This document shows, one piece after another, positions 7,783-22,330 of a stretch of DNA of 35,866 bases (position 1 is its first letter; each line of letters starts with the position of its first letter). Below the pieces are notes generated by a model. The model had not been told where the DNA came from, made no database searches, and saw only the letters and a list, made by a program, of their open reading frames with translations. Origin of the DNA: Nitrospinota bacterium. GTDB taxonomy: Bacteria > JADFOP01 > DATKYB01. Both the position numbers and the translations under genes were made by a program. The stretch covers positions 1 to 35,866 of the forward strand of contig DATKYB010000109.1 in the NCBI GenBank assembly GCA_035528715.1. The letters are read 5' to 3'.

Positions 7783-7950
7783 GAGTATCACCCACGGATA
7801 ATTTATTCAAACTATAAGAGGAGTGGGATATTAATTTTATAATTTAAAATAGATAAAGTGAAAGATCAAGTTTAATAAAGCAAATCAATGAAATAATTGA
7901 CCCAAGCATTTTTATATGTTACTTTAAAAATTATAGAAAAAGGCTTTCAT

Positions 7951-8196
7951 ATGAGACATATAATATTAATTATCCTCATTATTCTTTTTTACTATCTCGT
8001 AAAAAGTTTTTTCTCGCCACCGAAGGCTAGTCAAAAAAAAGGGTATGGTGGAACAGAAATTGATGATGAAATGGTTAAAGATCCCAATTGTGGTGTCTAC
8101 ATACCTAAAAAGGAAGCATTAGAAAAGAAGATTAAAGGCCAGAAATACTATTTCTGCAGTAAAGAATGCATTGAAAAATTCAAACAAGGGAATTAA
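7951..8196 (+). CDS. membrane-anchored YHS-domain protein
   Basis: An 81-residue protein with a single N-terminal membrane helix (about 2-19, HIILIILIILFYYLVKSFF). A YHS-type metal-binding domain follows, with MVKDPNCGVYIPKKEAL and the closing YYFCSKECIEKF (a C-x3-C pair with Y-x-F context). YHS domains bind heavy metals and are common next to metal transporters, though none is nearby here. The start ATG 7951 has AAAAGG 7 nt upstream; a TTG 54 nt earlier is in frame but would disrupt the membrane signal. It stands alone between spoVG and doxX. Confidence 0.82.
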   Translation: MRHIILIILIILFYYLVKSFFSPPKASQKKGYGGTEIDDEMVKDPNCGVYIPKKEALEKKIKGQKYYFCSKECIEKFKQGN

Positions 8197-14335: not shown

Positions 14336-14354
14336 TTATTAATACGGATTTTTT

Positions 14355-14432
14355 TCCGAAAGGGCAAACTATTCCGAAAGGATAGGACGCAAAGCCACTG
14401 GCCCAGCAAAGGGCAGCAGGGTTGCCAAGAGA
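14355..14432 (+). promoter_or_regulatory. c-di-GMP-I (GEMM-I) riboswitch
   Basis: The aptamer core is recognised by eye. AGGGCAAAC is followed by a hairpin capped by the conserved GAAA tetraloop (14376-14379), then the hallmark GACGCAAAGCC (14386-14396). A second hairpin follows (CTGGCCC, loop AGCAAA, GGGCAG) and the closing GGGTTGCC (14420-14426) pairs back with the GGCAA strand. This order matches the Vibrio Vc2 c-di-GMP-I class. It sits between a promoter and an intrinsic terminator ahead of a flagellar rod gene, a typical location. The strand at 14378-14386 can pair instead with the terminator 5' arm (see findings). Confidence 0.93.
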
Positions 14433-14514: not shown

Positions 14515-15228
14515 ATGCCTCTATATAGTTCGGCTATATCAGGTATAAATGCAGCTATAGATAGATATAATGTTTCCGCGAACAACAGAGCGAACATATC
14601 AACCAGCGGTTTTAAGAAAAGCAGGGCTCTTTTGGCCACATCTCCGTCTAATAGTGGGGTCATAACCTCTTCGATCCAGCGGATGCATAGCCAGGGAAGC
14701 CTCATTCTCACCAACCAGTCTTTGGATATAGCCATTGATGGCAAGGGCTTCTTTCAAATATCATTAGGCAATAATGGAAAAGCCTATACCAGAGATGGAA
14801 CTTTCCAACTAGATAATCAAGGAAGAATCGCAACCACCAGCGGTAAGCCCCTCTATCCCGAAATCACTGTGCCGGTCAATGTAGAAAAAATAAGCATGGA
14901 TACATCAGGAAACATAAGGGCACTTATCAACGGAAACTGGCAGGACCTCGGTCAGATTGAATTGGCATATTTTCAAAATCCAGGGGGGCTAACCCCAATA
15001 GGAGACAATCTCTTCGTAGAGACCATTGATTCAGGAATACCTCTAACAGGTATCCCTGATAGTGGGGGTTTTGGTAAAATCATTCAAGGAAGTCTAGAGT
15101 TATCAAATGTGAATCTGGCAGAAGAGGCTGTGAGTGATGTTATTACAAAAACCATAGTTGGAGCGAATATAGCTGCATTAAAAACAGAGGATAAGATGTT
15201 AGGGGCCTTGATCGATTTATTTGTCTAG
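14515..15228 (+). CDS. flagellar basal-body rod protein (FlgF/FlgG-like)
   Basis: A 237-residue axial flagellar protein, exported through the flagellar type III apparatus and assembled in the rod. The N-terminal rod domain (LYSSAISGINAAIDRYNVSANNRANISTSGFKKSRA), the middle GFFQISLGNNGKAYTRDGTFQLDNQGRI, and the C-terminal GSLELSNVNLAEEAVSDVI with a final coiled segment are FlgF/FlgG hallmarks. It is slightly shorter than usual FlgG, and which paralogue it is cannot be decided. The start ATG 14515 has AAAGGA 9 nt upstream. It is alone: no other flagellar gene is adjacent and dapF converges with a 4-nt overlap. A c-di-GMP riboswitch controls it. Confidence 0.9.
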   Translation: MPLYSSAISGINAAIDRYNVSANNRANISTSGFKKSRALLATSPSNSGVITSSIQRMHSQGSLILTNQSLDIAIDGKGFFQISLGNNGKAYTRDGTFQLDNQGRIATTSGKPLYPEITVPVNVEKISMDTSGNIRALINGNWQDLGQIELAYFQNPGGLTPIGDNLFVETIDSGIPLTGIPDSGGFGKIIQGSLELSNVNLAEEAVSDVITKTIVGANIAALKTEDKMLGALIDLFV

Positions 15229-16289: not shown

Positions 16290-16386
16290 GGAAGCGTCTA
16301 GGTGCCGGTGTGCCTCCTGGACTTCAAATCCAGTGGCGAGCTCTAATAAAGTTCGTGGTGGGTTCGACTCCCATACGCTTCCGCCA
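16290..16386 (+). tRNA. selC: tRNA-Sec (anticodon TCA)
   Basis: This 97-nt gene folds as bacterial selenocysteine tRNA. The acceptor stem has 8 bp (GGAAGCGT with ACGCTTCC), then discriminator G and an encoded CCA. The D stem has 6 bp with a CGGT loop, and the anticodon arm CTGGACTTCAAATCCAG is identical to that of Escherichia coli as I recall it. The variable arm is long (about 16334-16355) and the T arm carries GGTTCGACTCC. The anticodon TCA (16324-16326) decodes UGA. The 8+5 acceptor/T geometry excludes a suppressor or Ser tRNA. It implies that the organism uses selenocysteine; selA, selB and selD are not in the window. Confidence 0.97.
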
Positions 16387-16846: not shown

Positions 16847-17224
16847 ATGAAAACAGTAGCAAAGAAAGAGAGACGTCGATCACCAAGAATAGTTTTACAC
16901 TCTGCTGTTATGGATGTATATGATACCGATATTAAACTTCAAGCAAAACATAGAGGAAGAATCTGTGACGTTTCTACTTTAGGAGTAAAATTTATTTCTA
17001 ACAGGTCCTATGCTAAAGAATCGACGATTTATGTCGGTCTTTTGTTACCGAATTATAATTCTTTGATAAATGTCTCTGGAAAAGTAGTCCGGTGTGAACA
17101 GGAAAGAGGTGAAGAGTACAATATTGCTGTAGAATTTAAGGAAGATCACTATCAACAGTCTTTAGTATTAGAATATATAAGAATTATGAAGTTGTGGGAT
17201 AATCAATGGACGGGTCCCAGATAG
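16847..17224 (+). CDS. PilZ domain protein (putative c-di-GMP receptor) 1
   Basis: A 125-residue protein that is essentially one PilZ domain. The c-di-GMP-binding RxxxR motif is R10-R-S-P-R14 and the D/N-x-S-x-x-G motif is D41-V-S-T-L-G46. Strands typical of the fold follow (VGLLLPNY, VSGKVVRCEQ, YNIAVEFKE). There is no enzymatic domain, so it would act as an adaptor that changes partner binding when c-di-GMP is bound. It is followed after 79 nt by a paralogue with the motifs at exactly the same residue numbers, which indicates tandem duplication. It is near a c-di-GMP riboswitch and chemotaxis genes. Confidence 0.88.
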   Translation: MKTVAKKERRRSPRIVLHSAVMDVYDTDIKLQAKHRGRICDVSTLGVKFISNRSYAKESTIYVGLLLPNYNSLINVSGKVVRCEQERGEEYNIAVEFKEDHYQQSLVLEYIRIMKLWDNQWTGPR

Positions 17225-17303: not shown

Positions 17304-17666
17304 ATGAAAAAGAGAGATCAAAAAGATAGGCGTCAAGCACCAAGAACAGCTTTGAACAAAGCCCTTGTTGATTTATTTTCACAGAAGATGCTAAATCAAA
17401 AAGGGCAGAGAGGAAAAATCTGTGATATCTCTCATTTAGGAATAAAATTTAGTTCTGACAAACCCTATATTAAGGGTTCGATAATTCATTTGGGTCTTTT
17501 ACTGCCAAACTTTGTTCCCATAAGCGATATGACTGGTAAAGTCATACGCTGTGAACAGAAAGATAATGTTGAATGCTATACTGCTGTGGAATATAAAGGA
17601 GATTATTACTTACGGTCTCTGATAGAAGCATACATAAAAGCGATGAAATCGTGGAACTCACTTTAA
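17304..17666 (+). CDS. PilZ domain protein (putative c-di-GMP receptor) 2
   Basis: A 120-residue single-domain PilZ protein, paralogous to the gene just upstream. It has R10-Q-A-P-R14 and D41-I-S-H-L-G46, then LGLLLPNFVP, MTGKVIRCEQ and YTAVEYKGDYY. Both binding motifs are kept, so it should still bind c-di-GMP. The residue between the two arginine-motif ends and the hydrophobic surface differ from copy 1, suggesting a different affinity or partner; this is inference. Spacing of 79 nt and the same strand allow co-transcription. Confidence 0.88.
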   Translation: MKKRDQKDRRQAPRTALNKALVDLFSQKMLNQKGQRGKICDISHLGIKFSSDKPYIKGSIIHLGLLLPNFVPISDMTGKVIRCEQKDNVECYTAVEYKGDYYLRSLIEAYIKAMKSWNSL

Positions 17667-20884: not shown

Positions 20885-21412
20885 TTATTTTACCAAAGAA
20901 TAGGTGAGTTGAAGGCCTATGATACTCTTCGCATCAATAATTTCTCCTTTTTTAATCATATCTAATGCTTCTTTTATAGGTCTTTCTGATATTTCTATTA
21001 TCTCATCAAAATCAGGATTTTTGGGACAACGCTTAAGTCCTGTTGCAAGAAATATATGAATACGCTCATCACTAAATCCAGGTGTAGTCCATATTGTGGT
21101 TAATTTTTTAAAGTTTATTGCATGATAACCCACTTCTTCCCCTAACTCCCTCTTAGCGCATAAAAGAGGGTCTTCATTATTATTTAACTTGCCTGCTGGA
21201 ATCTCCCATATATGCCCCCCTGTTATATACCTGTATTGTTTGATCATAACGACTCTCCCATCTTCATGCATGGGAACAATAGCTGATGCCCCAGGATGGC
21301 GTACTATCTCTATTTTACACTCTCTTTCATTAGGCAAGATGACATCTTCAACATCTAAATCTATAGTAACGCCCTTATAGATATTTTTGATTCCCTTTTT
21401 ATAGCTTTCCAT
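20885..21412 (-). CDS. NUDIX hydrolase (ADP-ribose pyrophosphatase type)
   Basis: A 175-residue hydrolase with a complete Nudix box: G74, E80, R88, E89, L90, E92, E93, G95 (GX5EX7REUXEEXG). The upstream KQYRYITGGHIWEIPAGK is typical of the ADP-ribose pyrophosphatase (NudF-like) branch, which cleaves ADP-ribose to AMP and ribose-5-phosphate. The start is ATG 21412 with AAAGGAGA upstream. It is the last gene of a same-strand series. The 97-nt gap to the preceding gene (the candidate selenoprotein) could hold its own promoter. Confidence 0.92.
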   Translation of the reverse strand: MESYKKGIKNIYKGVTIDLDVEDVILPNERECKIEIVRHPGASAIVPMHEDGRVVMIKQYRYITGGHIWEIPAGKLNNNEDPLLCAKRELGEEVGYHAINFKKLTTIWTTPGFSDERIHIFLATGLKRCPKNPDFDEIIEISERPIKEALDMIKKGEIIDAKSIIGLQLTYSLVK

Positions 21413-21509: not shown

Positions 21510-21698
21510 TTATGAATCTTTGTTGAGGACCCTCAACACAATCCCTTTTCACGGACAATATCTCAATATAGAGGTTGCTAAAAAGAAAAGGCCTAACCAT
21601 CCCCAAGAAGTTTTTGGACCAACAAAGACAATCATGATAAGCAGGACTCCGAGGATGATTCTAAGAATGGCTTCAGTCTTATCAACATTTTTTTTCAT
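21510..21698 (-). CDS. candidate selenoprotein: DUF2892-type two-helix membrane protein with in-frame UGA
   Basis: From ATG 21698 the frame encodes MKKNVDKTEAILRIILGVLL, a helix (IIVFVG region), GWLGLFFLATSILRYCP, then TGA at 21551-21549. After it, 12 further sense codons (KGIVLRVLNKDS) lead to TAA at 21510. DUF2892 proteins are about 60-70 residues with this exact layout: start MKKN, then an R-I-I-x-G helix, a G-W-x-G second helix and a conserved C-P. Stopping at the UGA gives 49 residues, while reading it as Sec gives 62, the family length. A SECIS-like hairpin follows directly (separate entry) and tRNA-Sec is encoded in the window. The start lies 11 nt after the lipoprotein gene, with GAAGAG upstream, so it is in that operon. 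Alternatives are a truncated 49-residue protein, or TGG-to-TGA decay or error. Confidence 0.6.
21521..21538 (-). promoter_or_regulatory. putative bacterial SECIS hairpin
   Basis: On the minus strand a perfect 7-bp stem TGTTGAG / CTCAACA is capped by the tetraloop GGTC. The stem begins 10 nt after the in-frame TGA, and the loop begins 17 nt after it. In E. coli fdhF the SECIS starts about 11 nt after UGA and also presents GGUC at its tip, with G and U read by SelB. The stem is not followed by a T-run on either strand, so it is not an intrinsic terminator. It could instead be a palindromic operator of the NUDIX gene. Confidence 0.55.
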
Positions 21699-21709: not shown

Positions 21710-22330
21710 TCAAAGCACGATTTCAAACTCTGTCATCCTTTTATCGACAACGTCTAGTAAAGGAAAAAAGAGTTTTCCCATCATTCTTTCATCTTTATCC
21801 ATAGAAAAAAACAGATATCCATGGGTTTGATGCCTAGGAGAAATCGTCATACTTTTTAAGCTCTCTTCTATCAGATTCTTTTTAAGCCTTGACGCCTTTC
21901 GATATTTATTGCTAAAGGCTCTGGCTCTTATGAAATCCAAACCAAAAGGCAATCTTTTCTCTTCGCTTTCCCGAAATCCAGTCAGTCTTTCTATTAAGTC
22001 AGAGTCAGATATTGGAAATTGTTTTTCTCCTTTATTATTAACCAGAAATATTTGGAGAGTATCCAGAAAATGAGATCGATTACCTTTATTTGATATGACA
22101 ACGTATATTGGCAATATTTTTTTTGATACCATATCTTGATTATTAAAGACTGCTTTTATCCTATGGGGTTCAATAATGGGGTCAATCCCCACCATAAGAC
22201 CTTTTTTTATCTGGTGCCTTGTATAAGAATCTGCTGATTTAATGTCTTTAGATTGAGAATTGATTTGATGAGCAGAACACCCTGCTATAAAAAATATGAA
22301 TAAAAATAATATTAATTTAATCTTTGTCAT
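21710..22330 (-). CDS. putative lipoprotein of unknown function
   Basis: A 206-residue protein with a lipoprotein signal (MTKIKLILFLFIFFIAGC; lipobox IAGC with Cys18), so it is probably anchored to a membrane and periplasmic. The mature part has an Ig-like, strand-rich look (IIEPHRIKAVFNNQDM, LPIYVVISNKGNRSHFLDT) and ends with MDKDERMMGKLFFPLLDVVD. I do not recognise the family. It is followed after 11 nt by the DUF2892-type gene, so the two envelope proteins are probably co-expressed. Confidence 0.75.
   Translation of the reverse strand: MTKIKLILFLFIFFIAGCSAHQINSQSKDIKSADSYTRHQIKKGLMVGIDPIIEPHRIKAVFNNQDMVSKKILPIYVVISNKGNRSHFLDTLQIFLVNNKGEKQFPISDSDLIERLTGFRESEEKRLPFGLDFIRARAFSNKYRKASRLKKNLIEESLKSMTISPRHQTHGYLFFSMDKDERMMGKLFFPLLDVVDKRMTEFEIVL

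Follow-up and report, generated by a model that had tools for sequence, protein, structure and literature searches.

A selenoprotein subfamily, very probably, among the small two-helix membrane proteins of the PF11127 (YgaP-like_TM) family

The Nitrospinota DNA analysed here, a stretch of 35,866 nucleotides (the window), very likely encodes on its minus strand a selenoprotein of 62 residues in which an in-frame UGA is read as selenocysteine (Sec). We put the probability of this reading at about 0.94, a figure which covers the selenoprotein claim and not the function of the protein. The evidence is that of comparative sequence analysis, which supports the gene family, the conservation of its UGAs, its hairpin and a tail that is coding; selenium has not been shown in any member.

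The gene (21510..21698, minus) runs from ATG to TAA and was recognized by its frame, its PF11127 match and the presence of the same tail in 20 further genes. Read from 21698 to 21510 the frame gives MKKNVDKTEAILRIILGVLLIMIVFVGPKTSWGWLGLFFLATSILRYCP-UGA-KGIVLRVLNKDS-TAA, the C-terminal end being YCP-UGA-KGIVLRVLNKDS, and the product has 62 residues if UGA specifies Sec and 49 if it is a stop. The protein scores 53.5 bits against the PF11127 profile (Pfam cut-off 25.3), a family currently named YgaP-like_TM and formerly DUF2892. This was the sole domain found, a rhodanese domain being absent. The Sec50 codon is the TGA at 21549..21551 (minus), invariant across the subfamily described below, and the Cys48 codon is the TGT at 21555..21557 (minus). 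A preliminary description made from the sequence alone had reported this frame, the UGA following Cys-Pro, the two alternative lengths, the relationship to DUF2892, a 7-bp GGUC hairpin ten nucleotides on with the layout of E. coli fdhF, and a tRNA-Sec gene in the window. All of these held, and its selenoprotein interpretation is supported by the 20 further genes, which have UGA at the Sec50 position and conserved residues downstream. What it missed is the existence of relatives with two Sec, the first of which replaces the Cys of Cys-Pro.

Upstream lies a lipoprotein-like gene (21710..22330, minus) whose TGA stop is 11 nt ahead of the selenoprotein ATG; the two genes are likely to share a transcript. 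This gene is not kept beside relatives of the selenoprotein gene, nor is the NUDIX gene (20885..21412, minus) which starts 97 nt downstream on the same strand. As no neighbour gene recurs across the 15 family loci compared, the gene neighbourhood gives no clue to function.

The 20 further genes were found through pattern and HMM searches in Nitrospinota, Desulfobacterota and Methylomirabilota, those members with a named source being MAG sequences. Every one of them has a second in-frame UGA where the window has Cys, producing the motif Sec-x-Sec-Lys (UxUK; at the DNA level TGA-(P/L/S)-TGA-AAR). Together with the window gene, which specifies Cys-Pro-Sec, this UxUK subfamily has 21 members, 20 of them double-Sec. 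The first genome search led to locus L004, with two in-frame TGAs (...NY-U-P-U-KQMLLRS), and a profile constructed from the window and L004 gave two more, ending ...GY-U-P-U-KGLTLRVLSKRN and ...SY-U-P-U-KGLMLKVFSSK. When 84,980 species genomes were scanned with the DNA pattern 45 stretches matched. Fourteen of these carry the N-terminal features of PF11127, which the pattern does not require, and all fourteen are Sec-Pro-Sec-Lys (three are genes found earlier). About 30 of the 45 lack the membrane domain and were rejected as chance matches, in agreement with a roughly estimated chance expectation of about 24. Scanning viral contigs gave eight pattern matches, none with the N-terminal domain, and tblastn against plasmids gave no match. 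The gene is also absent from the two genomes of the class to which the window organism belongs.

Among 395 Desulfobacterota genomes, 11 matches reach the end of the subfamily model and all 11 have two TGAs; the stop-free matches are of the ordinary Cys-Pro-Leu/Pro/Ala type, the match being lost at or soon after Cys-Pro. Methylomirabilota contributed one further member of the UxUK type. The Desulfobacterota set includes Sec-Leu-Sec-Lys in two genomes and Sec-Ser-Sec-Lys in one copy with a decayed N-terminus. Loci L115 and L116 of this phylum read Thr-Sec-Leu-Sec-Lys, and proline between the two Sec is thus not required. Locus L128 (1486-1656, minus; Desulfobacterota), with Sec-Ser-Sec-Lys, has a degraded N-terminus and a changed hairpin arm and is likely a decaying gene. 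Genomes G389 and G396 each possess a double-Sec member plus an ordinary, stop-free paralogue.

In an alignment of 69 sequences only the Arg13 and Cys48 columns are invariant, the latter being Cys or Sec in all 69 rows and TGA in each of the other 19 UxUK members that are intact. Of the 19 members aligned without gaps all have the second TGA, and all but the window, where the codon is TGT, have the first (18). The Sec50 column behaves differently: it is Sec in all UxUK relatives, while in ordinary homologues Cys-Pro is followed by Leu, Ile, Ala or Pro, never by Cys, and a Cys at this second Sec site was not found in any homologue examined. The evidence therefore rests on the subfamily, without a classic Sec/Cys pair at Sec50. 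A bolder reading, for which the odds seem to us a little short of even, is that the second Sec is an obligate selenium site, Cys never taking its place in any family member. This would be at odds with a published statement that Cys homologues seem to exist for all known selenoproteins (PMC12013277). Were this reading true, two selenols would stand one residue apart at the membrane surface, with a chemistry beyond that of a dithiol.

A second form was encountered in three Methylomirabilota genomes (loci L139, L140 and L141, about 1450-1650, minus). These otherwise canonical homologues end Y-U-PGSHALGVSTRK, with a single Sec exactly at the family-invariant Cys, and have a strong hairpin of their own with a GGU loop some 20 nt downstream; they likely represent a second new selenoprotein subfamily. 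The tree places the three sequences with ordinary homologues and outside the UxUK group; if it is correct, Sec has come into the PF11127 family on two or more occasions.

The pattern of substitution indicates that translation goes on past the UGA. Ahead of the first UGA the members differ at the three codon positions by 0.51/0.27/0.66, and over the four codons past the second by 0.34/0.17/0.44, which is the usual protein pattern. In the hairpin the values are 0.13/0.09/0.04, the third position being the most constrained, and past the stop 0.75/0.74/0.77. The hairpin is accordingly under a double constraint, and it accounts for part of the conservation of the tail. The preliminary description had held that a lack of conserved residues past the UGA, or a TGG misread as TGA, would overturn its reading. 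Neither applies: conservation extends to these residues, and the TGA, seen again in independent assemblies, is not a read error.

Exactly 10 nt separate the window UGA from a perfect 7-bp stem closed by a GGUC loop, UGUUGAG-GGUC-CUCAACA (21521..21538, minus; loop 21528..21531), the loop lying 17 nt past the UGA. We consider this to be the bSECIS hairpin on the basis of its fold, covariation and a covariance model. The region has a folding energy of -11.7 kcal/mol (z -2.4). Of the 1307 TGA triplets counted over the two strands of the window, that of Sec50 alone is followed at that distance by a GGUC loop closed by six or more Watson-Crick pairs, and among 5000 dinucleotide shuffles of the window tail such a strict hairpin appears in two. 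A loose bSECIS rule is satisfied after 67 of the 1307 and so means little by itself. With its 4-nt loop, 7 bp, 17-nt distance and folding energy the hairpin also fulfils the published bSECIS model (loop 3-9 nt, stem 4-16 bp, G in the first two loop positions, 16-37 nt from the UGA, MFE <= -7.5; PMC13188914). Across 20 sequences 99.3% of the cells of the 7-bp stem are paired, and three stem pairs have been altered on both sides (UA/CG, CG/UA and AU/GC). The covariation score was reached by none of 500 shuffles, and slid versions of the stem score lower. When the window was left out of the covariance model, that model still picked out the window hairpin, at 39.1 bits and E 2.4e-9, and nothing else in the window was significant (next match E 0.56).

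The loop letters are those of the E. coli fdhF SECIS, the sequence of which we confirmed on E. coli genomes, and they sit on a stem at nearly the same distance from the UGA (18 nt in fdhF). Unlike fdhF, the hairpin of the window family also codes for L-K/R-V-F/L-S, and in the double-Sec relatives a single hairpin seems to act on both UGAs, which lie six bases apart, the first being 23 nt from the loop. A one-base deletion in the hairpin of L074 / L004 (499-568) shifts the frame of the last residues (LLRSSAQES, not LRVLS), and the hairpin still folds; either the RNA counts for more than the residues of the tail or the deletion is a sequencing error.

The machinery for Sec insertion is present. 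The tRNA-Sec gene, with anticodon TCA, lies in the window itself (16290..16386, plus; ARAGORN; Rfam RF01852, 73.7 bits). The genes selA (C123:11830-13203), selB (C123:13246-15129) and selD (C25:19322-20248, with an in-frame TGA of its own), which the preliminary description had proposed looking for, all occur in the window genome. SelB is above cut-off in 24 of 24 member genomes (15 tested initially and nine added, the three single-Sec genomes included) and SelA in 19 of the 20 tested (14/15 and 5/5). Since both are common in control genomes of the same phyla (SelA 53/60, SelB 60/70; about 87%), co-occurrence adds little: it is consistent with the claim and no proof of it. As a discriminating test it was dropped because of this high background. 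No other Sec gene was obvious among the read-through ORFs of the window.

We propose that SelB carrying Sec-tRNA-Sec would bind the GGUC hairpin, whose loop lies 17 nt past the UGA, and that the ribosome would insert selenocysteine at the UGA and run on to the TAA 12 codons later. The predicted product of 62 residues would have two membrane helices and a short C-terminal helix, with Cys48-Pro-Sec50 at the junction past the second membrane helix; in the double-Sec relatives one hairpin would appear to recode both UGAs. Structure prediction with AlphaFold2 gave two models of modest confidence (pLDDT 68). They are alike in having two helices, at 7-26 and 33-44 in the window protein, and a short third one with the motif at its start. 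PDB sequence searches gave no credible homologue. Lysines and arginines occur at both ends, and from this charge distribution, together with the cytosolic rhodanese domain of YgaP (PMC3551814), we infer that the motif faces the cytosol. E. coli YgaP, a membrane rhodanese, has the same kind of two-helix membrane domain, with Cys159 in its predicted second helix (PMC3551814); the window protein differs in having no rhodanese domain. We infer, with a confidence no better than that of a coin toss, that the selenol of the motif works at the membrane surface in redox chemistry or in the handling of persulfide. A sulfur or redox role is favoured by reports on DUF2892 genes, one of which is induced about 10-fold in H2S oxidation, its deletion having only a minor effect (PMC5358917), and another of which is grouped with trxC in an operon of a denitrification regulon (PMC6710368). 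The redox or metal role put forward in the preliminary description remains unproven.

A rival reading is that the UGA is a true stop, the gene then encoding a 49-residue protein ending Cys-Pro followed by a chance or regulatory hairpin. In its favour are the frequency with which the loose bSECIS rule is met in the window, the differing tails of ordinary homologues past Cys-Pro, where the next residue is non-redox, and the termination of other window genes by TGA, among them the lipoprotein-like gene at 21710, so that there is no general reassignment. We nevertheless regard it as very unlikely, because tail, UGA and hairpin are kept together in 20 other genes, the codon pattern carries on past the UGA, the window-free covariance model detects the hairpin, and relatives have conserved sequence past both of their UGAs, six bases apart, for which a plain stop offers no explanation. 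Genome-wide reassignment of TGA was itself ruled out, as other genes, both in the window and in relatives, terminate at TGA. A further possibility is that the UGA acts mainly as a selenium-sensing switch for a downstream gene. The proximity of the NUDIX gene might suggest this, but no downstream partner is held in common with relatives, and such a role is very improbable.

The first of two other alternatives leaves the selenoprotein claim intact. The window copy might be a mosaic of a canonical Cys-Pro membrane part and a Sec-x-Sec-type tail, or an intermediate which gained the second Sec first. On the membrane-part columns alone it pairs with the ordinary protein L013 (100/87), with which it has an FVGPKT-WGW stretch in common; with the tail included it falls inside the UxU clade (98/88), and no other member has Cys at the first site. 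Only 50 columns are available, however, an AU test does not reject a single UxU clade (p 0.354), and one Sec-to-Cys reversion would account for the window codon as well; we think it less likely than not. By analogy with P1B-type ATPases, whose Cys-Pro-Cys binds soft metal, the motif might serve to hold a soft metal such as mercury or copper instead of acting as a redox couple. The spacing of one residue, usually Pro (Leu in two members), at the end of a membrane helix would suit such a role, and known selenoprotein families include a mercuric transport protein and a cation ATPase (PMC13188914). Against it, no neighbour gene recurs, and hence no metal-resistance or copper genes, and the DUF2892 genes in the literature are tied to H2S oxidation (PMC5358917) or a trxC operon (PMC6710368). 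The balance falls against a metal site, without making it improbable.

The window protein resembles the stand-alone small PF11127 proteins in its predicted two-helix length, its N-terminal N-V/E/R/G features and the invariant Arg13 and Cys48. Ordinary members read Cys-Pro-(Leu/Ile/Ala/Pro)-(mostly Tyr), often with a G-(I/V)-(N/S)-T tail, and have no UGA, while the UxUK subfamily has Sec-x-Sec-Lys or Cys-Pro-Sec-Lys and an LKVFSK-type tail. The 119 prokaryotic families of a 2026 catalogue (PMC13188914) likewise combine in-frame UGA and bSECIS, and some have two Sec, but no motif given there is UPU, ULU or CPU, and the catalogue has no PF11127 entry. NCBIfam 20.0 holds no matching model (no match at E up to 5). 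The suspicion in the preliminary description that DUF2892 was not among known selenoprotein families is borne out in these two sources, and the PF11127 selenoprotein family is new to both. The open-access literature searched contained no paper on selenoprotein with DUF2892/YgaP, or on selen- with PF11127; description elsewhere is not excluded. A probable family of tiny integral membrane selenoproteins, mostly with two Sec in Sec-x-Sec-Lys, is thereby added, spanning at least three named phyla and the window's own lineage. A UGA near the end of a 60-residue gene is easily missed by gene finders, and the deep-Sep predictor is stated by its authors to be liable to filter out selenoproteins without Cys homologues (PMC12013277). 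The function of PF11127, a widespread family, is unknown; the occurrence of Sec in place of its invariant Cys suggests that this is the reactive residue and opens the function of the family as a whole to testing.

Several other features of the window were noted. At 7897-8196 (plus) is a small YHS-domain protein with an N-terminal hydrophobic stretch; a YHS family is counted among known selenoproteins, and this copy has no in-frame UGA. Two similar genes at 16847-17224 and 17304-17666 we tentatively take to be PilZ-like. A c-di-GMP-I riboswitch (14353-14429, plus; 64.1 bits) lies upstream of a flagellar FlgE/F/G-type gene (14515-15228).
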